Assembly (NCBI GenBank): GCA_019637395.1
Contig: JAHBVR010000010.1
Location: 248,001-312,000, forward strand
Reading direction: 5' to 3'
DNA length: 64,000 bases
From: Vulcanimicrobiota bacterium
GTDB lineage: Bacteria; Vulcanimicrobiota; Xenobia; Xenobiales; JADMJV01
How positions within the stretch are numbered: position 1 is the first letter of the stretch; each line of letters starts with the position of its first letter. Both the position numbers and the translations under genes were made by a program. Positions 11,401 to 48,713 of this stretch are shown here, piece by piece. The notes below the pieces were generated by a model, which did not search any database, had not been told where the DNA came from, and saw only the letters and a program-made list of their open reading frames with translations.

Positions 11401-14400
11401 GCTGGCGTTCCTGCTCCAATTCCGCCTGCACCGCGGAGGCCTGGGCCCAGGACTCTTCCAGGGCCGCCTGCTGCTGGGCCAGTTCCTCTTCCACCATCTG
11501 CAGCTGGCGCCGGGCCGACAGTCGCTCTTGCTTGAGAGCCCCGGCCACCTGGGTGAGTTTCTGTTCCAGGGCCTGACTGCGCTGCTGGCTCTGATTGCGT
11601 TCCAGCTGCACCTTCTCGAAGCGTTCCTGGGCCTGCTGGGCCTTGTAGCGCCATTGCTCCGCCATTTGCTGCTGGCCGTGTTCGGCCGCCAGCCGTTGGT
11701 TTTCACTTTCACTGAGCTGCTCGCTGAGAACGACCAGCTCGTTCTCCAGCTCAGCCCGCAGGCGCTGCTCGCCCTCCAACTGCCCGCGCAGCCCCTCTAC
11801 CTGGGCGGCCAGCGCCTGCTGAGTCGAACGCTCGCGTTCCAGCAACGCCTGCAACTGGCTGGTCTCTTCCCAGCTCTGGTCGAGCGCCAGCGTCTGTGTA
11901 TCCAGTTCCTCGCGCAGGGCGGCCAGCTCGGTATGGGCTTCGCCGATTTCGGCCTGGGCCTGGCTCAGACTCATGGCCAGCTTGGCCCGCTCGCCCTCGG
12001 CTGCTTCCAGGCGGCCGCGCGCCTGGGCCTGCATCTCCTGGAGCAGCTTGCCCAAGCGCTCGCGGTCGGCGGTTAAGCCGGTGACCTGCTCGATGCGCGT
12101 CTTTTTCTCGCGCGCCAACACCTCGACTACCTGCTTGAGCTTGTCCTCCAGGCGCTGCGAGCGTTCCTCGGCCTGCTGGCGCAATTGCTTGAGTTCGGCC
12201 AGTAGCACCAGGCGCTGACGCAACTGCTCACCGGCCTCTTCGGCCGCCTGACGCGCTTCTTCCAGCTCTCCCCGGTGCTCGATTTCCTGGGAATCACGCT
12301 GGACCCGCTGTTCATCGATCTGGTTTTGCAGCAGCACCAGCTGGCTTTCCAGAGCCAGCCGCGCCTGGCGCTCTTTCTCCAACTGCTCGCTGAGCTGGCC
12401 GGCTTCTTCCCAGGATTGGTCAAGGGCCAGCGACTGAGTATCGAATTCTTCTTGGAGTGTCTCCAACTGCCGGCGCAGCTCGCTCAGGCTGCTCTCAGCC
12501 TGCTGCTGATGCTGTTGGGCACTGGCCCGCAGTTCGGTCAGCAGAGCGGTGACGCGCTCATTTTCGGAGGAAAGGAAATTGAGCTGCTCGACCTGGTGCA
12601 GGCGGGCCGCTTTCTCGCGGCCCAATACCTCCACAACCTGCTTGAGCTTCTCTTCCAGCCGCTGGCTGCGTTCTTGAGCCAGGCCGCGCAGTTGTTTCAG
12701 CTCGCCCAGTTGAAGGACCCGTTGAGCCAGTTGATCGTGGAGCTGCTGGCGTTCCTCTTCCAGCTGCAGGATCTGACCTTGCACCTCATCCTGCTCCAGC
12801 TCGTGCAGCTGCTGGGTCTCTACCAACTGGGCCTCTAAAGCCTCGATCTGGCTCTGCAGCTGAAGCTGACCCTCGCCCAACTGAGCGACTTGCGCATCCA
12901 ACGCCGCCTTACGCTGGCGCTCCGCTTCCAGTTGCTCGTGGAGCACCCCCGCTTCTTCCCAGGATTGGTCGAGGGCCAGCGACTGAGTGTCGAATTCTTC
13001 CTGCAGCGTGGCCAGTTCAGCCCGCAGCGCCTCGCGTTCCCCCTCCACCTGGAGGCGCAACTGGCTTTCCTGCTGGAATTGCTGCAACAACTCGGCCCGG
13101 GCCGCCTGCAGTTCGTTCTCGTTTTGCTGGGACTCCAGCAGACGGCTACGCTCGACCCTAAGCCGTTCGGCCGTCTCGAGCAGCTTGTGCTCCAGCTTGT
13201 GCACGCGCAAACGGCTCTGCTCCAGCGAGCGAGCCAGATCGATCAACTGATTTTGTAGCTCGGCCTGCTCCTGACTGTTCTTCTGGAGCTGGCGTTCCAA
13301 TTCCTGACTGGCCTCCAGCCGCTCCAAATCCGACTGTTGCAGCAGCTCTTCAAATTGCTCGCGAATCTCGTCGCGCTCGGCCTGGGTGTTTTTCAGCCCG
13401 GCCTGCAGACTCTGAAGTTGCTTCTCCAGCTCCTGGCGCAGCTTCTTTTGTTCATCCAATTGGGTGGCCAGTTGAGCCGCGTCTTCCCAGGATTGCTCCA
13501 GGGCCAGCGACTGGGTATCGTTCTCATCCCGCAACTCAGCCAGGGCGCGCGCGTCTTCCTCATGACGCGAGCGCGCCTGCTCCAGCTCCAGCGCCAGCCC
13601 CTGGCGTTCCTCAGATCCTTGCTGAACCAGGGCCTTCTCCTGGCGAGCCACTTCCAGCAGTTGCTGCAGCTTCTCTTGCAGTTTGTGGCCACGCGCCCGG
13701 CTCGTATCCAGCTCGCTTTGCAGGCTGGCGATACGCTCCTTGGCCTGATTCCAGCGCTGCTCAAAGGCCACCCGCTTCTGCTCGGAGCTTTCGCTCAGTT
13801 GGGCCAGTTGCTTTTGCAGTTGGTCGCGCTCTTGCTGGCTCAGCTTCAGGCTGTCAGCCAGCTTGTGGTTGGTGGATTCCAGTTCTTCCACCAGATCGGT
13901 CAGGCTCTCGACCTCCTCCCGGTTCAGTTGTTCGCGCTGGCGCATCTGCTCGTGCAGCTCGGCCAGTTGCCGCTCGGCCAGGCGCGTGGCTTCCTGCTGC
14001 TCGACCAGTTGATGCTCGAGCTGGGCGGTGCCTTCTTGACCCACGGCCGCGATGCTCTGCCACTCGCCGCTGACCGTCTGCCAGCTCTCCAACTGCTGGC
14101 GCAACGAGGATTCCAACTCCTGGCTATCTTGTAAATGGCGCTCCACCTGGCTGGCGCGCGCCTGCCACTCTTCCAGGTCATGCTGCTGATCGTGCAGCGA
14201 CTCGGTCTGCTCGCGCAGGCGCTGCACCGCTTCCTGCAGCTTGGACTGAGCCTTGAGGGCGCGTTCCTCCCATTGCTGGCGTAGCGCCTGTTCCTGAGCT
14301 CCGTGTTCGGCCCGCCGGCGCAGTTCGTCCAGCACTTGCTGAGCTTTGTGCAGGCGGCCTTCCAGTTGGACCTTTTCCTGCCGGCTCCGCTCTAATTCCT

Positions 14401-15667
14401 GAGCGGCCTGCGCTCCCTGTTGACTCAGCCTTTGCACCTCTTCGTGCGCTGTCAGCAAGCGCTGCTGCAGTTCACCCGAGGTGCCCACCTGCATCTCCAG
14501 CGATTTGGCCCGCCCCTTGGATTCTTCCAGCTCCTGCTCGAGCCGGCCCAAGTCTTCCCAGGAAGCCGTCAAGGCGAGGTTCTGCTCGTCCAGCTCCAGT
14601 TCCAGCTCGGAAACGCGCTTCTGGCTGGCGCCCAACTCGGCTTCGGCCTTACGCCGCCCTTCTTCCTCGCGCTGGCGGGCCTCCGCTTCCTGGCGCCGGC
14701 CCTCTGCCTCTTGCTGACGGGCTTCCGCCTCCGCCTGGCTCTGCTTGCGCGATTCGCTCAGGGCCAGGATGGCCTGACGCAGCTTGGCTTCCAACTTGCC
14801 GTTGCGCTCGCTCAGGCGCTGCATTTCCTGATGGAGCGCCGGCTCGGCCTCAGCCTGCCTGGCCATCCAGCGTGACAACTCGCCGCGGGCCCCGGCCAGC
14901 TCTTTTTGCGTCTCCGCCAGGCGCTTTTGCAGCTCGCTGAACTCGCCGGCCAGCATCCCCTGCTCGGCCTCCAGGTCCCCCCGCGAGGTCCGGCTCATTT
15001 GTAATTGCTGCAGCAAGGCCTGTTCGCGCTGCTGGCTCAACTCCAACTGGCTTTGCAGCTCTAAAATTTGCTCGCGCAGGCCCTCCAGGATGGGAGACTG
15101 CACTTCCAACTGTTGCAACGACTGGAGTAGCTCGTCCAGGTTGAGCCCGGCTTCATCAAGTTGTCCCTGCAGACGCTCGACCACGCGCAGCCGCCGTTGC
15201 TGTGATTGCAGCTCGTCGCGCAGACCGTGGACCTTATTCTGGCTGTCCTCCAGTAGACCCTGTTGCTGGACCAACTGCTCGCGCACCTGCTGCAGATGGA
15301 GCTCCAGTTGCTGGCGTACCCCCTCGGCCGCCGCCAGTTGGCGAGCCATGTTCTCCTTCTCATCCAGGCTCAGGCGCAGTTGCTGCGCCAATTGCTCCGC
15401 CTGACGCTTGCGCAGCCCCTGTCCCGACTCGCTTTCCGCCAATTTCCGATGCAACTGGGTAAGCTGGGCATCTCGTTCCTGCAAGCGCTGGCCGAGCTGC
15501 TGCAAACGGGCACGCAAAGCAGCACCCTCGGAAGTTTCGACGGGTGCCCAGTCTTCGCGAGTCTCTTCTTCGGGGCGGGGAGCCTGCGACTCACCTTTCA
15601 CCGCGCTGGCGCGCTGCTTGATCGCCTCGAGACGCTCTTTAAGAGAAACAGTACCTTTTTGGGACAC
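2462..15667 (-). CDS. Giant 4401-residue coiled-coil protein
   Basis: One uninterrupted reading frame of 13.2 kb. Almost the whole protein (about residue 60 to 4340) is heptad-type sequence rich in Gln, Glu, Leu, Arg and Ala, with few prolines or aromatics. It is flanked by a short charged N-terminus (MSQKGTVSLKERLEAIKQ) and a proline-rich tail ending in GLELPGF. No signal peptide, membrane segment or enzymatic motif is visible, so it is probably a cytoplasmic fibrous or scaffold protein; a fully helical rod this long would be several hundred nanometres. Two families of long internal repeats are present (listed separately). The start is GTG at 15667; no strong ribosome site precedes it. Its stop overlaps the MFS start. 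Long open frames on the opposite strand are by-products of its codon bias. Function is unknown. Confidence 0.9.
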   Translation of the reverse strand: MSQKGTVSLKERLEAIKQRASAVKGESQAPRPEEETREDWAPVETSEGAALRARLQQLGQRLQERDAQLTQLHRKLAESESGQGLRKRQAEQLAQQLRLSLDEKENMARQLAAAEGVRQQLELHLQQVREQLVQQQGLLEDSQNKVHGLRDELQSQQRRLRVVERLQGQLDEAGLNLDELLQSLQQLEVQSPILEGLREQILELQSQLELSQQREQALLQQLQMSRTSRGDLEAEQGMLAGEFSELQKRLAETQKELAGARGELSRWMARQAEAEPALHQEMQRLSERNGKLEAKLRQAILALSESRKQSQAEAEARQQEAEGRRQEAEARQREEEGRRKAEAELGASQKRVSELELELDEQNLALTASWEDLGRLEQELEESKGRAKSLEMQVGTSGELQQRLLTAHEEVQRLSQQGAQAAQELERSRQEKVQLEGRLHKAQQVLDELRRRAEHGAQEQALRQQWEERALKAQSKLQEAVQRLREQTESLHDQQHDLEEWQARASQVERHLQDSQELESSLRQQLESWQTVSGEWQSIAAVGQEGTAQLEHQLVEQQEATRLAERQLAELHEQMRQREQLNREEVESLTDLVEELESTNHKLADSLKLSQQERDQLQKQLAQLSESSEQKRVAFEQRWNQAKERIASLQSELDTSRARGHKLQEKLQQLLEVARQEKALVQQGSEERQGLALELEQARSRHEEDARALAELRDENDTQSLALEQSWEDAAQLATQLDEQKKLRQELEKQLQSLQAGLKNTQAERDEIREQFEELLQQSDLERLEASQELERQLQKNSQEQAELQNQLIDLARSLEQSRLRVHKLEHKLLETAERLRVERSRLLESQQNENELQAARAELLQQFQQESQLRLQVEGEREALRAELATLQEEFDTQSLALDQSWEEAGVLHEQLEAERQRKAALDAQVAQLGEGQLQLQSQIEALEAQLVETQQLHELEQDEVQGQILQLEEERQQLHDQLAQRVLQLGELKQLRGLAQERSQRLEEKLKQVVEVLGREKAARLHQVEQLNFLSSENERVTALLTELRASAQQHQQQAESSLSELRRQLETLQEEFDTQSLALDQSWEEAGQLSEQLEKERQARLALESQLVLLQNQIDEQRVQRDSQEIEHRGELEEARQAAEEAGEQLRQRLVLLAELKQLRQQAEERSQRLEDKLKQVVEVLAREKKTRIEQVTGLTADRERLGKLLQEMQAQARGRLEAAEGERAKLAMSLSQAQAEIGEAHTELAALREELDTQTLALDQSWEETSQLQALLERERSTQQALAAQVEGLRGQLEGEQRLRAELENELVVLSEQLSESENQRLAAEHGQQQMAEQWRYKAQQAQERFEKVQLERNQSQQRSQALEQKLTQVAGALKQERLSARRQLQMVEEELAQQQAALEESWAQASAVQAELEQERQRGAGLENQLLTVRQELANLILESQQHQDEARTQLQSVRQELQQTQAQRRQLQDELEKRQLQLHQLVPKQQALNEEVRNQRIALEAARNVAQVRGQENDSLRAVLEEEHQQHQALLEELGKAQEQELAARRQGEGWLQELKAAQQREESLQAQWQELQAASERVDQERSQLSAQLEQLKASTRHEIEFLTEELEHRLHEGETLQESLRQAQQALEEQQKQLALQEQAARQARAQDLERQRQTEKLSQRLQQVGGAFQQAKLQLAARQQQLQEALKQRELSAKQVAALEAELEVRGQQLAELENQRDQLRGERTQALAEQEQLRQQWQRSRTEVESLHQQLQDLEEALHASEQWRDTQSEERRKLEQQLEKLRLELSKAGQVQSALKEKLLEAVARLRESQQLTQQQAEDMEELRFQLGELQLQAQDSTAQQNEWLQLHHSLQEQIAQLEEESRGRQRRLDRLAETRQQEHQAFQELEQKHQLLEQRLLAEQGLAERRQQELEEQARAEKERWQGELERRARDLEEFEEKIRQGDAELTVVRRQLDQANQQAEQIAQELIERQEQVFELEAALQNEQEEAGKEQARREALQSAVTALEQQLRQQTAESASRLQQINAQESNLGRYKSQLKVLQADREKLVAAYQQARQELAEQQQFQVDQTRRYEEVVSQLRVRQGELNRSQEELQLAQAQIETLEQDLAGWEERHGQAEGRAEGLARELAEKTQEVFRLRSSTDGMRKESLALQRRLGEMEQQHKQLSERRLKESQQAQAQLQKVLEQRQQLEAKLKELVAGLQQTRALNQQLAQDLNASRALAEGQGEQLLELHELLQRQQQQSDQSRGELERITGLLESERARRQALEQQAAVLQREVAEAQEQQSRGVEELGRLQEERVAELARLGEERQSERTAWESKLGQATFWQSQLEQRLRDEEARLLEVEGELARRVEERAQLEEQLRGEQQGREQARLQLETAHSQLARLAEQRQTLLDKLRQLSHDHTVLQSEREQLKESLTALELRLEVGELRRSQVESERDHLQSELEQTVQRLADMEVRLENSVQRQLQADRDLQRLAEVETENQWQESNLRQLSEREESSRKQVAQLSQERAELEQRVGELEAELRSHREELEELRAELEEGHLQQQAMRFEQSEMRARWSGGQKAQQELQEQLQQRGSELESLRQQLQQASGEAQELNSLVQQLHGEIDNRDQHVDQLQAELDHRQAALAKLSEAFHKVRQKLRETAAELAEVREFSAAERTELLERQAGLQADVDELQRRLGDRESLLEELRHSLSKAQFLEREGAEQQRELREELAAGSEVQAELRAQLAAEQERAEQLQEKLQQAVARFGQSKQLLGQMQGHLREEKAFGEQLRDQLALHQRLYQEAGEQLLVQQARLAEALAQVDKLESEAEGERLLKLELHNMRSQLDGVQAQLQAAAAGQQEIQDELDRVRLRERELDHQLSKSQQRERELDTHLQRSLSRERDLEQQLAGGLEQEERLRAELAGAWSDVQQAQLLEQRLQDELAQARGLTGRREKQIAGLEEQLAELQQRLAADTAELQRKHGEREAQLLEQLERLGETLRQHRGKANDALSGLKQRAEEMHAELQQVVRERQTLREQLDTRELELEAKRAELGRRLQAEADVQRELESVRRRRDELESRVAELAASVDELEGAGEELRASVQSGQEQLRDSQLRVQEQEQRAERALAELHATEERAGLSQQAILQLTNELSEAQGRLEQSELQNQRREQIVTQLKQRLHQAMQEIAARQGELRDAQMQNERNAREQELARAEAERKEARLQEVTLELEERFQKAAGLQLEVDRLSHRLQREEELREGLSAELERLQEIEATLQIQMDLQHSLRAEKVELEKQLEARAREVVEREEQLRDLELLRDRLEQKGSQVELLEAQLHHSRTALLEQESRTEELSDQLRQSQERGRNLEIQIQQLRHNLAQENSLSQQNQQALQQELSEAQSRLEASERQNQRREQIIEQLKQRLAQSTQEMSQRQAELREVQTAGERLGRERDALRSEGEGLRHELQQIQNRLQREEEFRAKLTAELEHLQAAEHQVQVQQSQLHQAHEERLELEARLAERSEELGSRQRDLHERDRDVEELQGLLEGSRNRCELQEAQLTSLRGQLSEQEMRAAEMSEQLRQSQERSRSLDAQLAQLRQRAAQESADSGQTMHRLNTQLEEMTQSLQQAERQGQRLEQVVGQLKDRLGKAMGELSARQSELHEVNVAGERLGRERDQLRQDLETVRQEADARELELNERSSRLAGLQLELDKTQQRLLREEETRASLGRELEQLQVDYDGLQQSLLDQAQLQLERDELLRQKGQLAGELDRALENKAVEAIRWQKAVEENQRRQEDLESRLLVSQQRVEMLGLELEEREQRLTAERKSGQERLNELRARLEKQVFEAQAVTVERESRISQLEREQRSQRDSLEMQLQDMQARRSSLEGELSSLRALNESAQASMQSKLEHLEGRYQELQAQLLDQEEQTHSQRLKVSALEADQVLLKQALHQTEANRDSLQLRLDTLLLDEEQVRAAWLAEQEQTAALRTRLQEGERQRQDLEIQLQEREGVRSQIASLESARRQAEEQATHLREHLEETRQQHELMVSDLKRQLEQGRLRLEREAEFTKGLQDRLKENQAQQIRLQQDQGEARQQLLELQAEQTRLLAELERTRGEALAAETARLQLVRLEELQAQTSRRLAELESEHERALNEAEQMRDEQQALQHKLRETEERARSLQSQLGVAMQQAEEADRLQAMQREHEADLAQLRRELEGRQTEVDGLKTQMRGRGRLQVEIDRLEGENKDLGRRVSEADLEIQRQRLRGDELESELADSRYWRTQAEGRLERSEQALVDLQRELEEARLSRQGDGRVAELEEALQAAGQADQELRARLREAEERLAELRARQQLAEQVRPPAPGVVAPAVSRRKPAPPVLSLLEAPSPERQESRSGGLELPGF
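4740..6170 (-). repeat. ~225-240-residue repeat family in the C-terminal part of the giant coiled coil
   Basis: Three copies of a second long unit are marked by QRREQIVTQLKQRL, QRREQIIEQLKQRL and QRLEQVVGQLKDRL at about residues 3171, 3411 and 3636. The DNA string ctgctcgcgccgctgattct is identical at 6149 and 5426, and a diverged copy starts at 4754; spacings are 723 and 672 bp. Flanking blocks (SDQLRQSQERGRNLE and MSEQLRQSQERSRSLD; LQREEEFRAKL and LREEETRASL) repeat with the same phase, so the gene grew by tandem duplication of a different unit here than in its N-terminal third. Confidence 0.7.
11861..13530 (-). repeat. ~180-residue repeat family in the giant coiled coil (SWEEA marker)
   Basis: Near-identical marker peptides (DTQSLALDQSWEEAGQL and variants) recur at about residues 1261, 1081, 898 and 721. 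In DNA the shared string cttcccag lies at 11866, 12406, 12955 and 13483, giving spacings of 540, 549 and 528 bp, all multiples of three. A more divergent copy (LDEQNLALTASWEDLGRL) at 14554 is 1071 bp, about two units, from the next. Each unit also carries a block like LEEKLKQVVEVLxREK. The periodic tryptophan in an otherwise aromatic-poor coil suggests a regular contact point or stutter. Confidence 0.75.
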
Positions 15668-17689: not shown

Positions 17690-18082
17690 ATGAAAGAAAA
17701 AGGACCCCTGGGGCACATCATTGCGGCGCTACGCGCCGTTCTGTGGTTGGGGGCTCGCGGCATTTGTCCGAAGTGCGGACGAGGCCGGATGTTCCGTAGC
17801 CACTTTCAAATTCACCGGGAATGTCCGGAGTGTGGGGTTGTACTGCAGCCCTATGCGGGCGACAGTCTGGGTGTCTACGCCGTTTGCTACTTCCTGACCG
17901 TGATCGCCACCGTGCTGGTGATGGCCGCGACTTACTTACTTTTCCACGTTACCTCACCCTACGTCTACCTGGGCCTGTTCTCGGTCACCTCGGGCCTGAT
18001 ACTGTTCGGCTTCTTTCCCAATATGAAAGGTATCTGGATCGCCTTCGTCTACCTGCTGACCGGACTGCGCCGCCAGCTCTAG
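17690..18082 (+). CDS. DUF983 family membrane protein
   Basis: A 130-residue protein with an N-terminal zinc-ribbon-like GICPKCGRGRMF...CPECG (two CxxC pairs about 20 residues apart) followed by YAGDSLGVYAVCYFL and two hydrophobic helices. This architecture is characteristic of DUF983, a small membrane protein family of unknown function. The TAG stop shares the palindrome CTAG (18079-18082) with the stop of the convergent response regulator gene. Confidence 0.9.
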   Translation: MKEKGPLGHIIAALRAVLWLGARGICPKCGRGRMFRSHFQIHRECPECGVVLQPYAGDSLGVYAVCYFLTVIATVLVMAATYLLFHVTSPYVYLGLFSVTSGLILFGFFPNMKGIWIAFVYLLTGLRRQL

Positions 18083-18936
18083 GCCCACATACGCTTATAC
18101 AGGCCCTCGAGTTCCGAGTTCAGCTGGCGCCGTTCCGGCGGGATGCGGCGCAGGGTGACGGCCAGGCTGAGTTCTTCAGCCGACACCTCAGCCTGCTTGA
18201 CCCGTTCCACAAACCGCCGGAAAGTGGCCCGGTCCACTTTCTCCGGAGAACGCTGGGAGGGCGACACGAAGCTTTTGTTCTCGGCTTCCTTGCTGAGGCG
18301 GGCGGACCAAAGAGCGTAACGGTCGAGCAGGCGCTTGGCGGCCTCGGCGGTAATGGCCGAGGTGTTGGCTATCTTTAAGTAGTCGACTTCCAATTCTTCC
18401 CAGGCGTCCCACAGGGCCAGCGCGGTCTCGGCGTAGTGGACTTTGGAGCGAATGGCCAGAAACAGGGATTTGAGACAAGCTTCGCGGGCGTTCTGCAGCT
18501 CCGCCAGGGCCTGATCGGGAGCGACCTGGCCGAGCACCCGGGACATGACCTGGCGATACCAGGACCTTTGCGAACGGGACTTGCGAACCCGTTCGACGGC
18601 CTGGCAGATATCGTGGACTTCGAATGGTTTGTAGAGATAATCGTCCACCCGGATCTGCAGAGCGCGCAAGGGAGCGGTCTGATCGGCGTAACCGGTGATG
18701 ACGATGCAGGCCAGGGCCGGGTGCTGCTGTTTGAGAGCTTGCAACACGCCCAAACCATCGGTGGGACCGGCCATGCGTATATCGGATATAACCAGGTCAT
18801 ACTCTTTCTCCCGGCCCAGCAGCAGAGCTTCGCGGGCCGAAGAGGCGGCCGTCACTTCATAATCCTGGGATTCCACCGCATCCACCAGCAGTTCCCGCAA
18901 ACTATCGTCGTCTTCCAGTACCAGAACGTGATTCAC
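18079..18936 (-). CDS. Response regulator with uncharacterised helical output domain
   Basis: Residues 1-120 are a receiver domain: VLVLEDDDSL acidic pocket, phosphoacceptor Asp52 in VISDIRMAGPTDG, conserved Thr in IVITGYAD and Lys in LYKPFE. The remaining 165 residues contain no HTH, GGDEF, AAA or other output domain I recognise, but look all-helical and align with the C-terminus of the response regulator at 39547-40491 (IRSKVHYAETALALW against IRSRKLLRTTALACW; similar YL and W-ending segments). The gene starts three bases after the stop of the histidine kinase, so the two form a cognate pair. Position next to a pseudopilin operon suggests control of that machinery. Confidence 0.88.
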   Translation of the reverse strand: MNHVLVLEDDDSLRELLVDAVESQDYEVTAASSAREALLLGREKEYDLVISDIRMAGPTDGLGVLQALKQQHPALACIVITGYADQTAPLRALQIRVDDYLYKPFEVHDICQAVERVRKSRSQRSWYRQVMSRVLGQVAPDQALAELQNAREACLKSLFLAIRSKVHYAETALALWDAWEELEVDYLKIANTSAITAEAAKRLLDRYALWSARLSKEAENKSFVSPSQRSPEKVDRATFRRFVERVKQAEVSAEELSLAVTLRRIPPERRQLNSELEGLYKRMWA

Positions 18937-18939: not shown

Positions 18940-21084
18940 TTACTCCTCACAGATCGGCAGTTTAATCACAAAACAGGCACCCCCTCCCGGGGCCGGCTGG
19001 TAATTCAATTCACCCCCGTGGGCCACCAGGATTTCGCGCGAGATGGAAAGTCCCAGACCCACGCCGGCACCGACGTCGCGGGTGGTGAAGAAGGGGTCGA
19101 AAATGCGATCCACCACTTCATCCGGGACACCCGGGCCATTGTCCAGCACCCGCACTTCCAGCCAGGGTGGCTGGATGACGGTGCGGATGTGGATGCGGGG
19201 GCCGCTCACCCCGGCCAGGGCCAGGCGGCCGTTGACCAGCAAATTGATGAGCACCTGTTGAATTTCCCCGGCGTTGACCTGGACCAGAGCGTCCTCCCCT
19301 TCGAGGATCAACTCGATGCCCTCCAGTTGGAAAGACTGGTCCACCATTTGTACCGAGTCCTGGATGATTTCGGCCATGGAGACCAGCCTGCGACCCTCGC
19401 CGGACTCACGAGAGTAATTGAGCATTTTGCTGACGATGACGCGCATCTGTTCAATGGATTTGCGGGCCGTCTGCAGGCGGGCGGCGGCCTTCTCGGGATT
19501 TTTCTGCAGGTTGGTCATAGCCAGATCCCAGGCCATGCTGATGCTGCCCAGCGGGGTATTCAACTCATGGGCTACCCCGGCAGCCAGTTGGCCGATGGCC
19601 GCCAGCTTGCTGCTCTGCACCAGGCCGGCCTGGGCCTGGCAACGCTCCAGCGCTCCTCCGGCCAGCAGCAACCACAACCGTAAGGCCTCGACTTCAGCCT
19701 CCTCCAGCCCCTCGGCGGCGATAGTGAATTCTCCGCCCGAGAGCGGAAAGGCCATGGCTCCCGGGGGAGGTGTGCCGAGCTTGATGCCGGCGTGGGCCGC
19801 GGCGCACTCACGACCGGTCCAGTGGGCCGCCCGGTCGACGGTGAGCTGCAGAATCTCGCGAGGCTGAACCAGACTGGCCAGTTCACCGGCGCCTTGGAGG
19901 AGTGCTTGCAATCGAGTCACGGCCAGGCTAAGGTCCTTTCGCAGAGCGGCTTGGATATTCAAAGCCTGCACCAGGCTTTCTTGGTGTCGGACCCGATCGA
20001 GCATAACGTTGAGGTAGTAGAAGAAGACCTGCAACGTATGCTTCAATTCCGCACTCAGACACACGGGAACCAGGATCAGCACCAGGCCCCGGTGGGGCAG
20101 GGGCCAAGCCGCCTGGCTGCCCTCTTTGAGATCCCTTAGCCACGGTTCCTGCTGGGCCCAGGCGCTCTGCACTCCAATGCGCACCTCGGCGGCCACCGGG
20201 CTGGAAAACTCCGGGCCGGAGGGCCCCAGCGGCACGAACTCGCAATGGGCGCCGGGCAACTTCTCACGCAGCGCTTTAAGGGCCTGGTCCAAAGCCTGGC
20301 GCTCGGAAAGACCTTGAGCCGACAGTGTTTCCAATAGCTCGAAGGTATCGGCGCGGGCGTCCAGCAAGCGTTGCAGCTTGAGCTGGCGCTCCTCCGTTTG
20401 GCCCAGCATCTTCTCTTGAAACTGGACCTGATTGCGCGCTGAACGCAAGGAACTGTGCTGAGCTCTGCGTTCGTCCAGTTCCACTCCGGTATAGGCCGCC
20501 CGCAACAATCCCAGAATCGGAGGCCAGGTAGCCAACATCAGGGCGGGATGAATGCGCCCCAGCACGGCCGCGCACAGACCCAGGCTGACCAGGGCCGACT
20601 GCTCCAGGGTCAGGGTCGCCCGGTCTCTGCCGGCGCGGGAACGAGGCGCCATCCAGCGCGTGAGCAGGCGTGGCAGGCTGACCGCGGCCAGCCAAAAGAA
20701 GGGAATTCCCCACATCAGACCGAGGGTTCGGGCGGCCACGGCGCACAGGATGGCGGGCAAGAGATCCACTTGCAAGTCAGCCAGGGCTCCGTTGGGGGAA
20801 GCGGGTAAGATGGCGCTACGAAGGGCCAGGGCGCAGGCCAGGCAGGCCAGTACCCAGGGCAGGCCCAGTTGGTCCAAACCGGTCAGGGCTACGGCCCAAC
20901 AACAAGCGGGCGAGAAATAGCCGAGAGCCAGGGGAGTGGCCCGCAGCTCCAGGATGATACTGCTTACCAGAGCGAGGATGGCCAGCTGCGGCGAAGCCGG
21001 CCGGTCGCCGCTCCAGAAAGACCCGGCGATCAGGGCCACGCAGACCACCAGGCCGAGCATCCTGGCCACGCTATTTTCCGCCAC
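18940..21084 (-). CDS. Membrane-bound sensor histidine kinase
   Basis: A 714-residue kinase. About six or seven hydrophobic segments occupy residues 8-200, then a long helical linker and GAF-like stretch (about 210-490), a HisKA domain with AAGVAHELNTPLGS (His506) and a HATPase_c domain with N box (NLLVNGRLAL), G1 (DNGPGVPDEV), F box (DPFFTT) and G2 (GVGLGLSISREIL). All residues needed for autophosphorylation are present. Start GTG at 21084. It is coupled to the response regulator downstream and diverges from the prepilin operon beginning at 21168 across an 83-bp intergenic region, which probably holds both promoters. Confidence 0.92.
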   Translation of the reverse strand: MAENSVARMLGLVVCVALIAGSFWSGDRPASPQLAILALVSSIILELRATPLALGYFSPACCWAVALTGLDQLGLPWVLACLACALALRSAILPASPNGALADLQVDLLPAILCAVAARTLGLMWGIPFFWLAAVSLPRLLTRWMAPRSRAGRDRATLTLEQSALVSLGLCAAVLGRIHPALMLATWPPILGLLRAAYTGVELDERRAQHSSLRSARNQVQFQEKMLGQTEERQLKLQRLLDARADTFELLETLSAQGLSERQALDQALKALREKLPGAHCEFVPLGPSGPEFSSPVAAEVRIGVQSAWAQQEPWLRDLKEGSQAAWPLPHRGLVLILVPVCLSAELKHTLQVFFYYLNVMLDRVRHQESLVQALNIQAALRKDLSLAVTRLQALLQGAGELASLVQPREILQLTVDRAAHWTGRECAAAHAGIKLGTPPPGAMAFPLSGGEFTIAAEGLEEAEVEALRLWLLLAGGALERCQAQAGLVQSSKLAAIGQLAAGVAHELNTPLGSISMAWDLAMTNLQKNPEKAAARLQTARKSIEQMRVIVSKMLNYSRESGEGRRLVSMAEIIQDSVQMVDQSFQLEGIELILEGEDALVQVNAGEIQQVLINLLVNGRLALAGVSGPRIHIRTVIQPPWLEVRVLDNGPGVPDEVVDRIFDPFFTTRDVGAGVGLGLSISREILVAHGGELNYQPAPGGGACFVIKLPICEE

Positions 21085-21167: not shown

Positions 21168-21941
21168 ATGAGACGGGTGCGGGGGCTGAGCATGATCGAG
21201 ACGCTCTTTTCTCTTTTCTTCATCGCCACCACTCTGCTGCTCACCAGCCAGTTGCTGATCAGCGCCACCCAGTTGCAGCATGAGGTGGAGAAGGCCATGG
21301 GTGGGGCTCACCTGGCCGATCAAATTTTGAGCCAGGTACGGGCCAATGCCAAGAAGAGCGGCAACATGCCCACTCCGCAAAGCGGCGAGAACTTCGATTT
21401 TCCCGGCTATCAGTACCAAATCGAGGTGGTCAAAGCCGGTCTTTACTCTCCTTGTAGCACCCGAGAATTGCAATTCCCCGTGACAGAACGCCGCTGGATT
21501 GCCGATCCGGGGTGCCAGGTCAAAGTTACCGTTACCTGGGAACCGACCAGCGCCCGCAACCGGGCCGTGGCTTACGCCCTGATCTTACGGGAGTTGCCCA
21601 GGGTGAAGGAGCTGAGGGTCGACGCCGACGGGGGCAACACTCTGCCGGTAGCCAAAGATGGCACTGTCCAATACACGGCCAGGGCTGTCGACTCGGGGGG
21701 CCGAGAGGTTCCCGGGGTCTTCTTCAGTTGGTACTGCGCCCCCCGCACGGGCAATGGTTTGGCTGAGGCCAAGACGCGGGACGGGCGGACGGGACAGTTC
21801 ACGCACGTTTACAGAAACCCGTATCGCCCTGCTCCCACCTACTTCCCAGCCGGCAGCGAGTGCCTCTTGCGGACCCGGGCGCGCATCAACGGGAAGGAGT
21901 TTGAGTGCGACAGCAGCGCCATTCCTCTCACCGATATCTAA
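21168..21941 (+). CDS. Prepilin-like protein with Ig-like C-terminus
   Basis: A 257-residue protein whose N-terminus RGLSMIETLFSLFFIATTLL fits the type III prepilin signal: Gly before the cleavage point, Glu at +5 of the mature protein and a hydrophobic helix. Residues about 140-257 read as a beta-sandwich/Ig-like domain (VKELRVDADGG...VQYTARAVDSGGREV). It would be processed by a prepilin peptidase and inserted in the inner membrane as a pseudopilin (GspI/V-like). TAGAAT at 21153 lies nine bases before the ATG. It is the first gene of a coupled five-gene operon. Confidence 0.8.
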   Translation: MRRVRGLSMIETLFSLFFIATTLLLTSQLLISATQLQHEVEKAMGGAHLADQILSQVRANAKKSGNMPTPQSGENFDFPGYQYQIEVVKAGLYSPCSTRELQFPVTERRWIADPGCQVKVTVTWEPTSARNRAVAYALILRELPRVKELRVDADGGNTLPVAKDGTVQYTARAVDSGGREVPGVFFSWYCAPRTGNGLAEAKTRDGRTGQFTHVYRNPYRPAPTYFPAGSECLLRTRARINGKEFECDSSAIPLTDI

Positions 21942-22480
21942 AAGGCGGATTCTCGGTGCTGGAAGCCCTGATGACGCTGGGGCTGATCTGCCTGGTGCTG
22001 TCGATTTTGGGCAGTTTGTTTTCCAGTTACAGCCGCCTGCTCTTGCGCCAGGGTGACCGCCAAAAGTCCCTGCTCGGCTGTCAGGTGGCGGTGGACACGA
22101 TTCGGCGCGACCTGGTCTCTTGCATCAGCTTCTCGATCCCGACCCCAGAAACGTTGCACGTTGAGCAGATCGATCCGCTGGTCAGCTCTCGTCTGCCACG
22201 ACCGCTGCCCGATTCCGCGCCAGCCGACTGGCGGCCCCACCTGAATGAAGAGCGCTTAAAAATAGACTACCGGCTGGCTCGAGGCTCGGTGCTGCGCAAG
22301 ATCATCCGGGGCGGCGGAAGCAACTTCGAGGAAAATGTGACTGACGAAGTCGATGGGCTGGATTTTGACCTGACCACCAACGGCACTCTGCGGGTAACGG
22401 CGACCGCCCTGATTCAAGGCAATTTGAAGCGCTGGAGTGTGGAAATCGCTCCCCACCTGCCTGAGGAGCTCTACCCGTGA
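21905..22480 (+). CDS. PulJ/GspJ-like pseudopilin
   Basis: A 191-residue protein with leader MRQQRHSSHRYLK and processing site GG/FSVLEALMTLGLICLVLS, carrying the canonical Glu5. Size and the QVAVDTIRRDL segment after the helix match GspJ/PulJ-type minor pseudopilins that cap type II secretion or type IV pilus fibres. The best start is GTG at 21905, overlapping the preceding gene by 37 bases; no later start keeps the leader. Its stop overlaps the next start as GTGA. Confidence 0.8.
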   Translation: MRQQRHSSHRYLKGGFSVLEALMTLGLICLVLSILGSLFSSYSRLLLRQGDRQKSLLGCQVAVDTIRRDLVSCISFSIPTPETLHVEQIDPLVSSRLPRPLPDSAPADWRPHLNEERLKIDYRLARGSVLRKIIRGGGSNFEENVTDEVDGLDFDLTTNGTLRVTATALIQGNLKRWSVEIAPHLPEELYP

Positions 22481-22959
22481 CCCCCCGTGGCTTTTTACTC
22501 CCCCTGGCGCTCCTGATCGCCATGTTTTTCGGTATCATCGGAGGCGCCTTCCTCTACAGTCAATCGATTCTTTACCGCGGCACAGTAGGAGCCAATCTGC
22601 TGCTCCAGGCCCGCAGCCTGGCTGAGGTGGGCGTTGAAGACGCGCGCTGCAAGCTGCAGCGAGACATCGATTTTCCGCCGGCCGGCAGCGAAGAGCAAAC
22701 CGAGTACGCCTATGCCGAAACCTATATGGATCCGATCACCCGGGTGCGAGCCGGCAGCTATACCGTGGTGTTGGACCAAACTCACGCGAAAGCTCCCTAC
22801 TTCGTACTCGTGGTGCGTTCGACCGGCAGCGCCTCGAACGGAGACATTGACGTGATTAAAACGATTGTGGCTGAACTGGATGTCAGTCCTAAGGATCGGG
22901 ATGACCCGACCAAGGATAATCCCCACTATCTGCAAGTGCTGAATTGGCAGGAAAAATGA
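22477..22959 (+). CDS. PilX/GspK-like minor pilin protein
   Basis: A 160-residue protein with MTPRGFLLPLALLIAMFFGI at the N-terminus, a single hydrophobic helix and the LLLQARSLAEVGVEDARCKL segment typical of PilX/GspK N-terminal regions. As in GspK-type tip pseudopilins, Glu5 is absent (the residue after GFLL is Pro). Start GTG overlaps the previous stop (GTGA), and its TGA overlaps the next ATG. It probably joins the J-like and H-like partners at a fibre tip. Confidence 0.75.
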   Translation: MTPRGFLLPLALLIAMFFGIIGGAFLYSQSILYRGTVGANLLLQARSLAEVGVEDARCKLQRDIDFPPAGSEEQTEYAYAETYMDPITRVRAGSYTVVLDQTHAKAPYFVLVVRSTGSASNGDIDVIKTIVAELDVSPKDRDDPTKDNPHYLQVLNWQEK

Positions 22960-24929
22960 AAAGACGCGCAATGAGTCTAGCGGAACTGATGGTAGCCATG
23001 GGCATCATGGCACTTTTGACCGGCTTGGCGGTTTTGCCGCTGCGAGCCAAGTCGCCTCTGGCCAAAGCCAATCCTGACGCAGTGGCCACGGTGCTGTCCA
23101 GTGAGCTGCGCTCGGCCCGCCTGCGGGCCATGTCCAAGTCGATGCCGGTGGGTGTGATCATTCCCAGTCAGAACGGGAGCCGAGGCCATTCTCAGTCGAT
23201 TTACGTGCTGGAAGGCTATCTGCCGGGAGCCAGCCCGCGCAATCCGATCCTACCGCCGGAGCCACCTCCCAAAATGGTGCGAGTTCTCGATTTTTCCAAG
23301 GAATATCCGGGCGTTTACATCTACGCCGGCGGCTGGGACGTCGACAGCGCCGCCCTCACCGAGCCCACCCTGACCCCCGCCATCGGTGATAGCCTGGGGA
23401 CTTCCCTGGAAAATTGGACCAAGCCCACCAACAAAGATTACCAGTTGGTCTTTATGCCGGACGGCCGCGTCATCAGCAATGACCTGCCCCATTTTGACGG
23501 AAACTTCCACCTGGTGGTGGCGGCCAATCTCAGTTACACCACGACCGGGCCTCCACCCGGGACGCCCAGCATGACCACCTCGCCGGCCTATTTCAAATTG
23601 ACCGGCGTGCATCAGCCCATCACGCTGTCGATCAGCCTGCAAGGTGGAGTGGCCAGCACCAAAGCCTTGCTGGCCAGCACCGGAGTGGTCGACTGCCAGG
23701 CCGGAGCTCCAAGCATTCCGGCCGCTGGAGCCCCTTTGCTGAGTCTGGTGGTCAACTCCCCGCCCCAGGTGGCCGACGTGACCATCATGCCGCCGCCCAA
23801 TCCCGATCCAGATCTTTCGGGAGGATTTGATGCCGTAGTCCGACCAGATGGCTTCCTGACACTGGTGATTCGCATTGTCGATCCTCAGGGAGATCAGGTT
23901 TCCTGTCAATGGAACGATGAAGAGGTGGGTGGAGCACGCACCGGCTCCTTCACCATCCCCCCGGGCAAGCAGAGCATCGAGTACGACGCCGTGCAGGGCT
24001 GCTGGATAGCCTCGGCCATCTGGCAACCTCCCGTGGACGCCCGATCGGGCGATCGATTTCGCCTGACAGCCACCGTCAGCGATCCGCTGGGGGCCAGCTA
24101 CACCCTGGACGGCGACGCCGCCATCAAGGTGGAAACCCGTAACGCCGGGCGCTTCTTCTTCAGCGACCAGGGCTACGTGTGCAGCCTGAACGGTGACGGC
24201 AGCGGCATTCGCCGCCTGGCCCGCGGCACCGACCCGGAAGTTTCTCCTGACGGCTCCATGGTGGCTTTCCTGCAAGGTACCGACGTGGCCGTCATGCAAT
24301 CGGACGGCTCCCAGGTCAAGGTGGTGGCCACGGGTGAATTGGGCTCGCCTACCTGGTCTCCGGACGGCCTCTACCTGGCCTTCGACCAGGGCGGCACGGA
24401 AGTAAAATTTGTGCGGCTGCACGACAAAAAGGTGTCTACGGTGGCCTTGCCGGGCTCGCGTCCGCGCTGGTCGTCTCGGGATGTGCTGGTTTACCAGCAA
24501 CCGGGCACCACCGTGACCCAACTGACCACCGCGCCGATTGTGGCCGGCAACCTCTTTCTGTCCACCCCGGTGCCGCCCACGCCGACCATGATCACCCTGC
24601 CGGCCCCGCACGACGCCAGCAATGTCCAAAACGCGGCCTGGAGCAGCGACGGCGGTTACCTGACTTTTCAGACCAGCGCGGGCATTCTTTCCTGCGATGC
24701 GGCCGGAACCACCGTGGTGGAACGCTATACTCCCCCTCCGGGAAGTACCGCCCAACGGAGTTGGATGATGGTGGGCGAACCGGCTACCAAGATGGTCTTT
24801 GTGGAAAGCAGCAGCGGCAACGGCAAGCTCAAGATGTGCAACGTAAACCTCTCCGACGCCAACCCGGCTGGAGCCACGGTAGTGTTGCGCACGGGCCAAC
24901 TCGACGGGTCCTGTTCTTGGGTCCCCTGA
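22956..24929 (+). CDS. GspH-like prepilin fused to a TolB-like beta-propeller
   Basis: A 657-residue protein. MKRRAMSLAELMVAMGIMAL gives an Ala/MSLAE processing site with Glu5, followed by the SSELRSARLRAMSKSMPVGV stretch found after the helix in GspH-type pseudopilins. Residues about 240-390 are Pro/Gly-rich beta sequence. Residues about 390-657 are PD40/TolB-like propeller blades with repeated SPDGSMVAF, TWSPDGLYLAF, RWSSRDVLVY and AWSSDGGYLTF motifs. The ATG at 22956 overlaps the upstream stop (ATGA) and follows CAGGAAAA; an alternative TTG lies at 22944. Pseudopilins are normally 150-250 residues, so the added domains are exceptional. Confidence 0.85.
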   Translation: MKRRAMSLAELMVAMGIMALLTGLAVLPLRAKSPLAKANPDAVATVLSSELRSARLRAMSKSMPVGVIIPSQNGSRGHSQSIYVLEGYLPGASPRNPILPPEPPPKMVRVLDFSKEYPGVYIYAGGWDVDSAALTEPTLTPAIGDSLGTSLENWTKPTNKDYQLVFMPDGRVISNDLPHFDGNFHLVVAANLSYTTTGPPPGTPSMTTSPAYFKLTGVHQPITLSISLQGGVASTKALLASTGVVDCQAGAPSIPAAGAPLLSLVVNSPPQVADVTIMPPPNPDPDLSGGFDAVVRPDGFLTLVIRIVDPQGDQVSCQWNDEEVGGARTGSFTIPPGKQSIEYDAVQGCWIASAIWQPPVDARSGDRFRLTATVSDPLGASYTLDGDAAIKVETRNAGRFFFSDQGYVCSLNGDGSGIRRLARGTDPEVSPDGSMVAFLQGTDVAVMQSDGSQVKVVATGELGSPTWSPDGLYLAFDQGGTEVKFVRLHDKKVSTVALPGSRPRWSSRDVLVYQQPGTTVTQLTTAPIVAGNLFLSTPVPPTPTMITLPAPHDASNVQNAAWSSDGGYLTFQTSAGILSCDAAGTTVVERYTPPPGSTAQRSWMMVGEPATKMVFVESSSGNGKLKMCNVNLSDANPAGATVVLRTGQLDGSCSWVP

Positions 24930-25409
24930 ATGAGCCAATCACGACGCCGCGTCCAATTCTCCACCTCCTGGAGCGAGCGCCTGAGCCGGCTGCGCCTGGA
25001 CCGCTCCAGCTTCGTGATAGGCTTCTGCCTGCTGGGGCTGGCCGGAGGGGTCCGCGTGCTTCAGGGTGACGCGAAGGCCACGAGCGGCCCTTCTCGGGGC
25101 CCGGCCATGAGACAATTTGATTTGAAAGTCCAGGGTGAATTTACTGGACTGAGTCCCGCCCAACTTCAAGAAACGGAAGTGACCCTCTATTTTCCGCAAC
25201 TACCCTACAAAGTCACCAGGGATTGGGACGAACTGGAGCACCCTCGGCCGGAGGCTTTCGTAATGCCTGTCCAGTTGCGGGCCGCGGCCTCCGCCAGCCT
25301 GTGTTACCTGCGTCTGCAAGTTCGCGACCAGACTCTGCAGGCCGGCAAGATTCAGGTGGAGGCGGGTAAACCGGCCGCCAGCTTCCCGGCCTTTCAGGTC
25401 AAACTCTAA
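24930..25409 (+). CDS. Hypothetical membrane-anchored protein
   Basis: A 159-residue protein I do not recognise. A basic N-terminus (SRRRVQF...) precedes one hydrophobic helix (SSFVIGFCLLGLAGGVRVL), then a soluble, beta-rich domain containing TEVTLYFPQLPYKVTRDW. Its ATG directly follows the stop of the prepilin-propeller gene, so it is likely the last gene of that operon and could be an accessory inner-membrane component. Its TAA overlaps the stop of the convergent platform-protein gene by four bases. Confidence 0.7.
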   Translation: MSQSRRRVQFSTSWSERLSRLRLDRSSFVIGFCLLGLAGGVRVLQGDAKATSGPSRGPAMRQFDLKVQGEFTGLSPAQLQETEVTLYFPQLPYKVTRDWDELEHPRPEAFVMPVQLRAAASASLCYLRLQVRDQTLQAGKIQVEAGKPAASFPAFQVKL

Positions 25410-26533
25410 CCCAGGTTACCGATGAAGGAGTACATGGGCACGAAGATGGAGAGCACCACGGTGGCGATGATGCTGGCCACACCTCCCAGCAGCAGAGGTT
25501 CGATGGCGGCGCTCAGACACTCCACCAGGTAGTTGCATTCTTCCTCATAATAGGCGGCCGCCCGGCCCAGCAGTTCCGGCAGTTGCGACACTTCCTCACC
25601 GGCCGCTACCAGGTGAACCAGCGTGGGGGGGTAGAGGTCCCGATCGCCTTCCATATGAGCCGAGGCCAGTTCGCCCTCTTGAATAGCCTTGGTCAGGTTA
25701 GCAGCATCCTTTTCCAACAAGGGGCTGCCACTGGAGGCGGCGGCCAGTTTGTAGCACTTGGTCAGTTCCAACCCCGAGTGTATCAGGTTGGCGGCGGCCG
25801 CGCTAAATCGGGCCAAAGCACCGGCCTTCAGCATGCTGCCCAATCCAGGCAGGCGCAGCACCCAGCGATAAGCGATGATTCTCAAACGCCGACGATTAAG
25901 CACATATTGCACACCGCCAAAGGTCAGTCCGAAAAGGGAAAAGCCCAGCAGCCACCCGCCCGGACTGCGAATGATATCGGTTATGGCCATCACCACCCGG
26001 GTGACCAGCGGCAGAGGAATGTTCATCTCGCGGAAGATCTGTAAGAAACCCGGCAACACGGTATAGAAAAGTAACAGGGTGAGAGTGCCGGCCACCGAGA
26101 GAATCAGGGCCGGGTAGGTCAGGGCCGAAATGATTCGCTGGCGTAGCGCTTCGTCTTTCTCCAGCCAGAGAGCCAGCCGGTCCAGAGATTGGTCGAGCTG
26201 GCCTACGTGTTCTCCCATGCTGGCCATGCTGACGTAGATGGAGGGAAAAACCCGGGGAAAGTGCGAGCAGGCGTTGGAAAAGGTATGACCCGCGGCGATC
26301 AGATCGGCCACCACGGTGACCACCTTGCCCAGATCAGGACAATCTTCATTGTGCTGCAAGGTATCGAGGGCCTGTAGCAAAGGCACGCCGCCCAGAAGCA
26401 TGGCGCTGAGCTGGCGAGTAAAAAGAGCCACCACCCGGGGTGGGACCCGTACTCTTCGGTAGGTTGATTCCAGCTCCATGTCGGGGGTCAAGTTGGGGGA
26501 AGTTCGCATTCCAGCGGAGGTAACCCTACTCAT
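25406..26533 (-). CDS. Type II secretion/type IV pilus platform protein (GspF/PilC family)
   Basis: The polytopic inner-membrane platform that couples the assembly ATPase to pseudopilin polymerisation. VPPRVVALFTRQLSAMLLGGVPLLQALDTL is replaced here by its key parts: FTRQLSAMLLGGVPLLQAL in the first T2SSF domain, ISALTYPALILSVAGTL at the first membrane helix, then ARFSAAAANLIHSGLELTKC and VHLVAAGEEVSQLPELLGRA in the second T2SSF domain, with a final helix. The start at 26533 is chosen because GGAGGGG sits just upstream; the frame is open to 26647. Length 375 is normal. It lies convergent to the pseudopilin operon. Confidence 0.9.
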   Translation of the reverse strand: MSRVTSAGMRTSPNLTPDMELESTYRRVRVPPRVVALFTRQLSAMLLGGVPLLQALDTLQHNEDCPDLGKVVTVVADLIAAGHTFSNACSHFPRVFPSIYVSMASMGEHVGQLDQSLDRLALWLEKDEALRQRIISALTYPALILSVAGTLTLLLFYTVLPGFLQIFREMNIPLPLVTRVVMAITDIIRSPGGWLLGFSLFGLTFGGVQYVLNRRRLRIIAYRWVLRLPGLGSMLKAGALARFSAAAANLIHSGLELTKCYKLAAASSGSPLLEKDAANLTKAIQEGELASAHMEGDRDLYPPTLVHLVAAGEEVSQLPELLGRAAAYYEEECNYLVECLSAAIEPLLLGGVASIIATVVLSIFVPMYSFIGNLG

Positions 26534-26643
26534 TGTCGTTGTCCCCTCCGCCGCTGTCCTCTTCAGTCTAGCGGATGGGTCTAATGGATGGCCTATTTTT
26601 TTGGGAAGAATGTGAACAACTTGTAACAGATCTGGCGTTGATA

Positions 26644-27810
26644 TCAATCAGCCTGGCCGCGGTCCGCCATGCGGGCATAGGTATGGGCCACTGAATCGCA
26701 GACCCAGTCCAGCAATTGGCGGTACTTGTCATTCTCCACCGCCTTAAGGCCGGAAAAGTCGGTCTGAATAGAGTGGTTGGCCACGACGATGCCCCAGCCG
26801 TCCTCGGCCAGGGCGGGGAGGTCGATGACCTCCAGTCCGAGCCCGTAGTGGACCAGCTGCAACTTACCCAGCGAGCGTCTGACGCGGAAGAAAGTGGCGT
26901 GGCAGCGAATCAACGAACCGATCCAGGGAGAATAGTCCAGCGGCAAAACCCAGTCCGGCAACAGCGGTAGCTGGTTCCCCTCGGCTCTGGCCGTCTGCAT
27001 GGGCGGGTACGCCAACGGGCCGGCGATTTCCAAAATCCCCAGAGATTCGTCCGACTTGGGGCCACAGATCTCGGGAAACCCGTCTAGAAAGATACGGTGT
27101 GCCGGCCAGGCGTGGGGTGGCGCGGCCGCCAGAGCGGCGGAAGCCTCGGGAGGAGCCAGGACCAGGCGCCGAAAAATCCGGTAGGCCTGAGTCGGTCCGG
27201 ACTTGGGCAGCGTTTGGAGCGCTTCTCCCTGGGCCAGCGGGCGGCTGTCTAAAAACAAGGGGAGGGGACAGTAGCGCAGGGCCGAGCCCAACTGGTGGCT
27301 GAGCAGGGTTACCAATTTTTTAAAATCGGCGTCGGCGGCCGCCGGCCGATAGAGCATTACCACGCGGCGATAGGCGGGAGGCAGGGTCTGGCGGGTTTCG
27401 CTGCCGGCGGCGAGACGGTAGAGGCTGCCTCCCTGAGCATCCTGGCAGAGCAGTTCCACGCTTTGGGGCCCGAGCGCCTGCGCCCAGAGTAAGGCGGAAT
27501 AGAGGAAAGCAGCCGCTTTGGAGCGCTGGCCCGATTGGTCCAACACTTGATCCGGGGTAAACGTCTCCTGGTCCAGCAGAATCTCCACGCTGATGCTGGC
27601 GCGGGAACAACTTACGTTGAGCCCCAGAGCCCGCGCAGCCACACCCGCTTGAGCCAGGAAATAGACCCAACGGGCCGGATATTGTCGGGATAGATCGCCG
27701 ATTTTGGAGAGCGCATGTTGCCAGTCGATGGTGAAGGAACCGCTGGAATCGAGACTGCCCTCCGAAAGCGCGCCGTCGATGAACTGCTCGAGCTTGCTGG
27801 CCCCTTCCAT
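26644..27810 (-). CDS. Uncharacterised protein, paralog of the 61310-62686 product
   Basis: A 388-residue protein of no family I can name. The N-terminal LDSSGSFTIDWQHALSKI and a central stretch of mixed alpha/beta sequence resemble YDSTGAFTLSLGEARRKL in the protein at 61310-62686, and the C-terminal VVANHSIQTDFSGLKAVEND resembles VVATPDLEVDLSQFSP there. No signal peptide or membrane helix is evident. Its ATG overlaps the TAA of the membrane-protein gene upstream (TAATG), so the two are co-translated. Confidence 0.7.
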   Translation of the reverse strand: MEGASKLEQFIDGALSEGSLDSSGSFTIDWQHALSKIGDLSRQYPARWVYFLAQAGVAARALGLNVSCSRASISVEILLDQETFTPDQVLDQSGQRSKAAAFLYSALLWAQALGPQSVELLCQDAQGGSLYRLAAGSETRQTLPPAYRRVVMLYRPAAADADFKKLVTLLSHQLGSALRYCPLPLFLDSRPLAQGEALQTLPKSGPTQAYRIFRRLVLAPPEASAALAAAPPHAWPAHRIFLDGFPEICGPKSDESLGILEIAGPLAYPPMQTARAEGNQLPLLPDWVLPLDYSPWIGSLIRCHATFFRVRRSLGKLQLVHYGLGLEVIDLPALAEDGWGIVVANHSIQTDFSGLKAVENDKYRQLLDWVCDSVAHTYARMADRGQAD

Positions 27811-37945: not shown

Positions 37946-37948
37946 CAG

Positions 37949-41642: not shown

Positions 41643-41687
41643 TTAACTGATTTTGACACCTACTTCAGCAACGCCTCCCCAGTATGC

Positions 41688-41699
41688 TAGATTAAAAAG
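41688..41699 (+). promoter_or_regulatory. Candidate leaderless -10 element for the small pseudopilin
   Basis: TAGATT at 41688-41693 is followed by six bases (aaaaag) before the ATG at 41700. The same spacing occurs before the genes at 17690 and 42160. Confidence 0.35.
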
Positions 41700-48515: not shown

Positions 48516-48713
48516 CAAGCACGCCTGTAAATTCCGCAGGTTTCTTAGGATTCTGGTCTTTATGCGGGTAGCCCGCGATTCGCTCTCTACCGGATTGGCG
48601 TGGGCGACAGTCGATAGAAACACGCCCCTGGTGGCGGCCCAGAGCATGTTATGGCCAGTCAGACGCAGCGTGGACAGGAGGAAGATTGGCCCATCCTCAA
48701 CAAAGGTTGTTGC

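Follow-up and report, generated by a model that had tools for sequence, protein, structure and literature searches.

In the 64,000-nucleotide stretch of a Vulcanimicrobiota bacterium genome analyzed here (assembly GCA_019637395.1, contig JAHBVR010000010.1, positions 248,001 to 312,000; hereafter the window), the gene at 22956-24929 on the forward strand, termed H*, encodes one genuine polypeptide in which a minor pilin is joined to a beta-propeller, and this fusion is recurrent. With a probability of about two in three, H* is a modular H-type (GspH/FimU-like) minor pilin whose propeller stands near the tip of a type 4 filament in the role of PilY1, with a ligand differing between gene cassettes. 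The gene and its modules are as follows.

22956..24929 (+): H*, whole gene, modular minor pilin of 657 residues (open reading frame, ortholog, dN/dS)
22956..22970 (+): leader peptide MKRRA, with the predicted prepilin peptidase cut after Ala5
22971..23660 (+): residues 6 to about 235, GspH/FimT-type pilin module preceded by hydrophobic alpha-1, which has Glu5 (profile matches, Glu5 count)
23760..24146 (+): residues 269-397, immunoglobulin (Ig)-like stretch, probably a spacer (Big_9 in 6 of 30 members, alignment, weak solved-structure search)
24147..24926 (+): residues 398-657, TolB-type PD40 beta-propeller, probably of six blades (Pfam and NCBIfam matches, AlphaFold2 and Foldseek; blade number from motif spacing)

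The open reading frame (ORF) has no internal stop, and its start codon overlaps the stop codon of the upstream K gene (ATGA), a pattern as would be seen in a translationally coupled operon; scans for promoters, terminators and repeats yielded nothing of note. The N-terminus, MKRRA|MSLAELMVAMGIMALL, carries a prepilin motif in which Ala precedes the cut and mature position 5 is Glu (Glu5); N_methyl (E 1.4e-3) and TIGR02532 both match it just under their cut-offs. PD40 matches the C-terminal third over the Pfam cut-off (E 4.2e-8), and TolB-type models match there too. H* has the class III prepilin signal and the hydrophobic alpha-1 with Glu5 that mark a modular pilin and, in PD40, an extra domain which is not specific to pilus biology. 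An earlier sequence-only reading of this stretch, which had described a class III prepilin N-terminus and PD40/TolB blades in one frame of 657 residues, is borne out by the ORF and by these matches. The NCBIfam matches of H* to TolB, Verru_Chthon cassette protein D and GspH are far under cut-off. For the GspH equivalog TIGR01708 the score is 15.9 to 18.1 bits versus a cut-off of 80, so that H* is GspH-like and not a GspH equivalog; the corresponding values are 27.8 versus 343 bits for the TolB family TIGR02800 and 19.7 versus 70 bits for the Verru_Chthon protein TIGR02596. The PilC/PilY1 propeller domain PF05567 has no match in H* at E 1.

The family alignment comprises 30 of 35 listed ORFs: two duplicates (L008 and L061), two ORFs with unclear starts (L028 and L030) and the frame-shifted copy on L040 were left out, and L001 and L002 are represented by the window and L031. 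At E 0.01, PD40 matches 21 of the 30 members, N_methyl 18, Pfam GspH 10 and Big_9 6, and the NCBIfam GspH model matches 16 of the 17 pilin modules scanned from among the 30. For the Ig-like stretch named in the sequence-only reading, the Big_9 matches are in favor, whereas a profile search of PDB gave nothing below E 0.08; resting on a minority of members, this is a weaker assignment.

An ortholog on contig JADMJV010000154.1 (locus L031) has the same fused frame, with 69% identity over its length, in a cassette of the same order (I, J, K, H*, small protein). The ratio of nonsynonymous to synonymous substitution rates (dN/dS) between the two H* genes is 0.134 overall; by module it is 0.127 (pilin), 0.088 (Ig-like stretch) and 0.155 (propeller), which indicates purifying selection on all three modules in one conserved frame. 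When window:18079-26647 is compared with L031:6207-14643, the block of I, J, K, H* and small protein is conserved, but in L031 the kinase/regulator pair lies on the opposite side of it, where it joins the platform gene. The genome of the window (G000) has 13 intact H* members including the window copy, with lengths of 643 to 720 residues counted from the first start codon. One further member is frame-shifted (contig C7, L040:5092-7295), within an otherwise complete I-J-K cassette with a platform gene, as a result of either decay or a sequencing error. More ORFs of H* size were found in a search of 58 relatives, and a scan of genome contigs with H* alone gave the JADMJV010000154.1 ortholog as its sole match. 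That an assembly error or frameshift joined two genes in the window, a concern raised by the sequence-only reading itself, gains some color from the C7 copy, which indicates that such errors or decays occur, but the same fusion on an independent contig, the 13 intact members and the dN/dS of 0.13 practically rule it out; the frame-shifted paralog excepted, neither such a joining nor separate genes in relatives were found. The additional prepilin–PD40 fusions for which that reading had proposed a search thus exist, both in this genome and in relatives.

Full-length matches to the fusion, from the pilin module through the propeller, were found with the family profile in 9 of 149 genomes of the phylum, when at most about eight candidates per genome were scored and the matches listed were considered. 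Seven of the nine, G000 to G006, are the genomes of two families of the order, whereas G015 shares only the class and G026 only the phylum; in the remaining genomes, the matches listed cover only the propeller. A literature search found no description of a pilin–PD40 fusion, with most subscription papers outside its reach.

H* is encoded together with three other minor-pilin genes and with genes for a platform protein and a two-component system.

18079..18936 (-): response regulator (Response_reg E 1.8e-24)
18940..21084 (-): histidine kinase adjoining the cassette (HisKA and HATPase_c)
21168..21941 (+): I subunit, PilV/GspI-like minor pilin, Glu5 present
21905..22480 (+): J subunit, PilW/GspJ-like minor pilin, Glu5 present
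22477..22959 (+): K subunit, PilX/GspK-like minor pilin, Glu5 absent
24930..25409 (+): small protein with one apparent membrane segment, encoded at the end of this apparent operon (48% identity in the ortholog cassette; no Pfam family)
25406..26647 (-): platform protein of the GspF/PilC family (T2SSF E 3.4e-44), in the clade of H*-cassette platform proteins

When all ORFs around H* were scored with profiles built from the I, J, K and platform proteins of the window, I, J and K were found to adjoin 13 of the 14 H* genes of this genome, the exception (C32:4299-6230) having J only and facing another H* cassette. The same three genes are present in all 15 cassettes (16 H* genes) examined from G001, G003, G004, G005, G006, G015 and G026, so that four minor pilins are co-encoded. 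Glu is at mature position 5 in all 27 H subunits, all 26 located I subunits and 26 of 27 J subunits, the single J without it reflecting a misplaced cut site, versus none of the 26 located K subunits; C7, C32:4299 and the second H* of G026 are left out of this count. As the cut-site finder favors Glu5, the result for K stands against the bias of the finder. Absence of Glu5 from K is a mark of GspK and PilX (PMC7541494). Together with the presence of I, J and H, this makes the set a complete H-I-J-K minor-pilin complex, closed by H* and with the propeller on H. At L037:4299-8393, two H* genes, one with full I-J-K and the other with J only, point away from each other, and the pair looks like a local inverted duplication. 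Also, a 191-residue protein encoded after one H* gene (L033:10070-10645, -) has an N-terminus which by eye resembles GspF/PilC proteins.

HIJK complexes are located at the tips of type IVa pili (T4aP), where they are capped by PilC/PilY1 (PMC10191384), minor pilins assemble with PilY1 into priming and tip complexes (PMC7541494), and modular pilins present grafted effectors (PMC8179133). Display of the propeller at or near a filament tip is therefore the natural inference from a complete H-I-J-K set. In the proposed mechanism, a shared prepilin peptidase would cleave H*, I, J and K, which would then form the priming and tip complex of a type 4 filament on their own platform protein, and a shared ATPase, major pilin and secretin would extend the filament. 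Close to the tip, the Ig-like spacer would hold the propeller away from the filament, and the propeller, as a covalent part of the H pilin, would do the job of the PilY1 tip adhesin by binding a ligand that differs by cassette. About a dozen alternative tips would in this way be served by one machine. Histidine kinase and response regulator genes adjoin the window cassette and several others, and the neighboring two-component system would probably control which tip is made; by analogy only, the minor pilin/PilY1 operon of Pseudomonas aeruginosa is under FimS-AlgR control (PMC5979040).

G000 has 43 GspF/PilC-type platform proteins (one of them a weak match) versus 8 PilB/GspE-type ATPases of full length and 3 strong matches to secretins; PilT, PilC, PilD, PilM, PilN, PilO and PilQ of the T4aP core are encoded in one region and PilB elsewhere. 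The excess of platform proteins in G000 goes together with many minor-pilin cassettes, and relatives of the same genus and family have at least 60 GspF/PilC-type domain matches. A GspF/PilC-type gene lies near 8 of the 14 H* genes of G000. In a quick maximum-likelihood tree of the 43 proteins, made without bootstrap, with several long branches elsewhere, labels taken from gene context and 16 rows unlabeled, these eight form one group (Shimodaira–Hasegawa-like approximate likelihood ratio test, 98) with the unlinked C36 inside it, apart from the T4aP-operon PilC and from the ATPase-linked platform proteins.

An alternative is that H*, I, J and K cap short pseudopili like those of the type II secretion system (T2SS), the propeller recognizing and pushing out a cassette-specific secreted protein. 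HIJK are present in the T2SS as well (PMC10191384), and two secretins with GspD-type N0 domains score over cut-off in this genome besides PilQ. Still, no T2SS-specific gene was recognized in the cassettes among those neighbors that are annotated (not all are), and the platform group of the H* cassettes is not the branch of the GspD-linked GspF (C23_379325), so that this use of the cassettes appears unlikely.

If the propeller is displayed near a filament tip, a broader proposal can be entertained, tentatively and at less than even odds: a repertoire of filament tips, in which about 14 H*IJK cassettes with fast-diverging covalent propellers, many of them with platform proteins of a dedicated clade, are served by few shared ATPases and secretins, the platform protein selecting the tip. 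If platform proteins choose the tip that is loaded, a cell could switch the specificity of its pili without PilY1. In a search for PilY1, none of 58 genomes matched, but the control genomes were likewise silent, and the result therefore does not show that PilY1 is absent.

The modules differ in divergence. Over 25 cassettes (own_C23b and own_C31, each with one cut site not located, are left out), the pilin module has a mean pairwise identity of 0.30, the Ig-like stretch of 0.27 and the propeller of 0.20, and in none of 9 close pairs is the propeller better conserved than the pilin module. It is the most diverged module, which fits an effector that changes faster than its carrier. Across all pairs, distances of the modules are strongly correlated (r 0.78 to 0.88), but solely on account of the close pairs; among the distant pairs, 282 of 300, the correlation falls to 0.09 between pilin module and propeller and to 0.50 between pilin module and J, and no claim is therefore made that the domains were never shuffled.

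Several points weigh against a tip-displayed, ligand-specific propeller. In known tip complexes, the position of the H subunits is beneath the apex, and the propeller may therefore be lateral. No major pilin was identified in the cassettes, and at 6 of the 14 H* loci of this genome no GspF gene lies within the stretch examined. Relaxed constraint or poorly aligned repeats could account in part for the more rapid divergence of the propeller, and the dN/dS of 0.155 in the propeller of the ortholog pair is not positive selection. In addition, structure prediction, which the sequence-only reading had suggested as a check, succeeded only in part: the AlphaFold2 model of full-length H*, made with two sequences, is unusable, with a mean predicted local distance difference test score (pLDDT) of 33, and the folds of the pilin module and the Ig-like stretch therefore rest on sequence profiles; profile matches to pilins in PDB extend over the N-terminal helix only.

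The propeller modeled alone has a pLDDT of about 57-90 over its first ~120 residues and below 50 beyond. Foldseek with this model ranked TolB first (E 5e-6), and with VIA-align TolB came out level with WD40 proteins (Z 13.7, about residues 1 to 135; TolB 6pnv: root-mean-square deviation 3.2, 135 aligned residues). As usable confidence extends over only ~120 residues and an automatic count of propeller motifs was too ragged to settle the matter, the number of blades is a reading of motif spacing. In a search of solved structures with the family profile, TolB (E 1.1e-26) and designed propellers were found, TolB being the closest natural relative of known function.

This kinship raises the question of whether the propeller could remain in the periplasm and bind a protein of the envelope (Pal or a sensor kinase, for example) as an anchor or as a sensor of retraction. 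TolB, which has a separate N-terminal domain, is located in the periplasm, and histidine kinases are encoded beside several cassettes. However, the H* propeller, close as it is to TolB of the Tol-Pal system by profile and fold, falls far short of the TolB family cut-off (see above), and strong divergence among about 14 paralogs would be odd for a housekeeping partner; a periplasmic role is thus improbable. It is very unlikely that the propeller is instead catalytic (peptidase- or lyase-associated), delivering an enzyme to the tip of the pilus: weak matches to DPPIV_N (6 of 30 members) and oligogalacturonate lyase (1 of 30) hint at it, but these reflect the shared propeller fold, PD40 being the common match, and no peptidase domain follows the propeller.

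PilY1 and modular pilins are the known answers to the question of how type 4 filaments acquire different specificities. Both would meet in one protein in H*, whose propeller is fused to the H pilin of a complete set of H, I, J and K. Modular type IV pilins, exemplified by the von Willebrand factor A pilin PilB and the lectin pilin PilC of Streptococcus sanguinis, likewise have a non-pilus module C-terminal on a prepilin, with presentation at the tip proposed, and comprise more than 1,200 proteins in 264 architectures (PMC8179133). H* differs from them in that its module is an Ig-like stretch with a TolB-type propeller, located on the H pilin of a complete HIJK set in about 14 cassettes in one genome; the domains mentioned in the portion of that source available do not include PD40 (PMC8179133). 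PilC/PilY1 is likewise a propeller protein encoded with four minor pilins (FimU, PilV, PilW and PilX), and several clusters in a genome have been proposed to produce different tips (PMC7541494; PMC13190605). In H*, unlike in PilC/PilY1, the propeller is part of the pilin and of the TolB/PD40 type. PilY1 has its propeller in the conserved C-terminal portion, and its variation lies at the N-terminus (PMC7541494); the former has been described as the constant carrier and the latter as the variable effector (PMC8179133), whereas in H* the pilin is the constant carrier and the propeller the most variable part. With about 14 cassettes, the H* family also far exceeds the one to three clusters with PilY1 that a genome of Myxococcales has (PMC13190605). 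Myxococcota have on average two PilY1 per genome (PMC13190605), and Myxococcus xanthus has three clusters, with tips of different properties proposed (PMC7541494).

The Kil/Tad pili of M. xanthus resemble the H* system in that several paralogous minor-pilin tip cassettes serve one pilus (PMC12075869). They differ in belonging to the Tad family and in having a KilLMN trimer and four interchangeable tips, with no mention of a propeller in the text (PMC12075869), versus about 14 cassettes in the H* genome. With 43 platform proteins for 8 full-length ATPases and 3 strong matches to secretins, this lineage makes the choice of a tip complex by the platform protein testable. Verru_Chthon cassette protein D is one of the proteins of a four-gene prepilin-like cassette repeated in Verrucomicrobia. 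Its model, TIGR02596, which is 196 positions long and has no propeller, matches the H* pilin module weakly (E 7e-4) and far under cut-off; a literature search for this cassette found no paper.

A second pilin locus of the window (35982-42065) encodes a platform protein, a response regulator, a 533-residue K-like pilin without a Pfam match, a PD40 lipoprotein, a J-like pilin and a divergent I-like pilin, and it has no H*. The sequence-only reading correctly saw that the propeller here is a separate lipoprotein next to pseudopilins, and took the two loci as fused and split versions of the same partnership. The lipoprotein gene (36566-37945, -) does lie in an apparent operon with pilin-like genes, but the split version is not supported: in a single BLASTP comparison, the fused propeller and the lipoprotein match at E 0.028 through the PD40 motif only and are not detectably related otherwise. 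Relatives of the lipoprotein are encoded at seven loci outside the window. At L162 the relative lies beside a K-like pilin fragment, and at L158 a GspF-like gene is located some 2 kb from it; on the stretches fetched for the remaining five there is no pilin or GspF gene, some of the contigs being short. The second locus is read as a different cassette type, not as a split form of the H* cassette.

Serine/threonine protein kinase genes lie in or beside several other pilin cassettes (L112, L115, L121, L124 and window:34570-36273), most of which have a large K-like pilin. Elsewhere in the window, a 4401-residue ORF rich in Q, E and L (2462-15667, -) resembles one long coiled coil, and an 834-residue protein of odd architecture (48651-51155) seemingly consists of many tandem helix-turn-helix (HTH_17/MerR-like) units.
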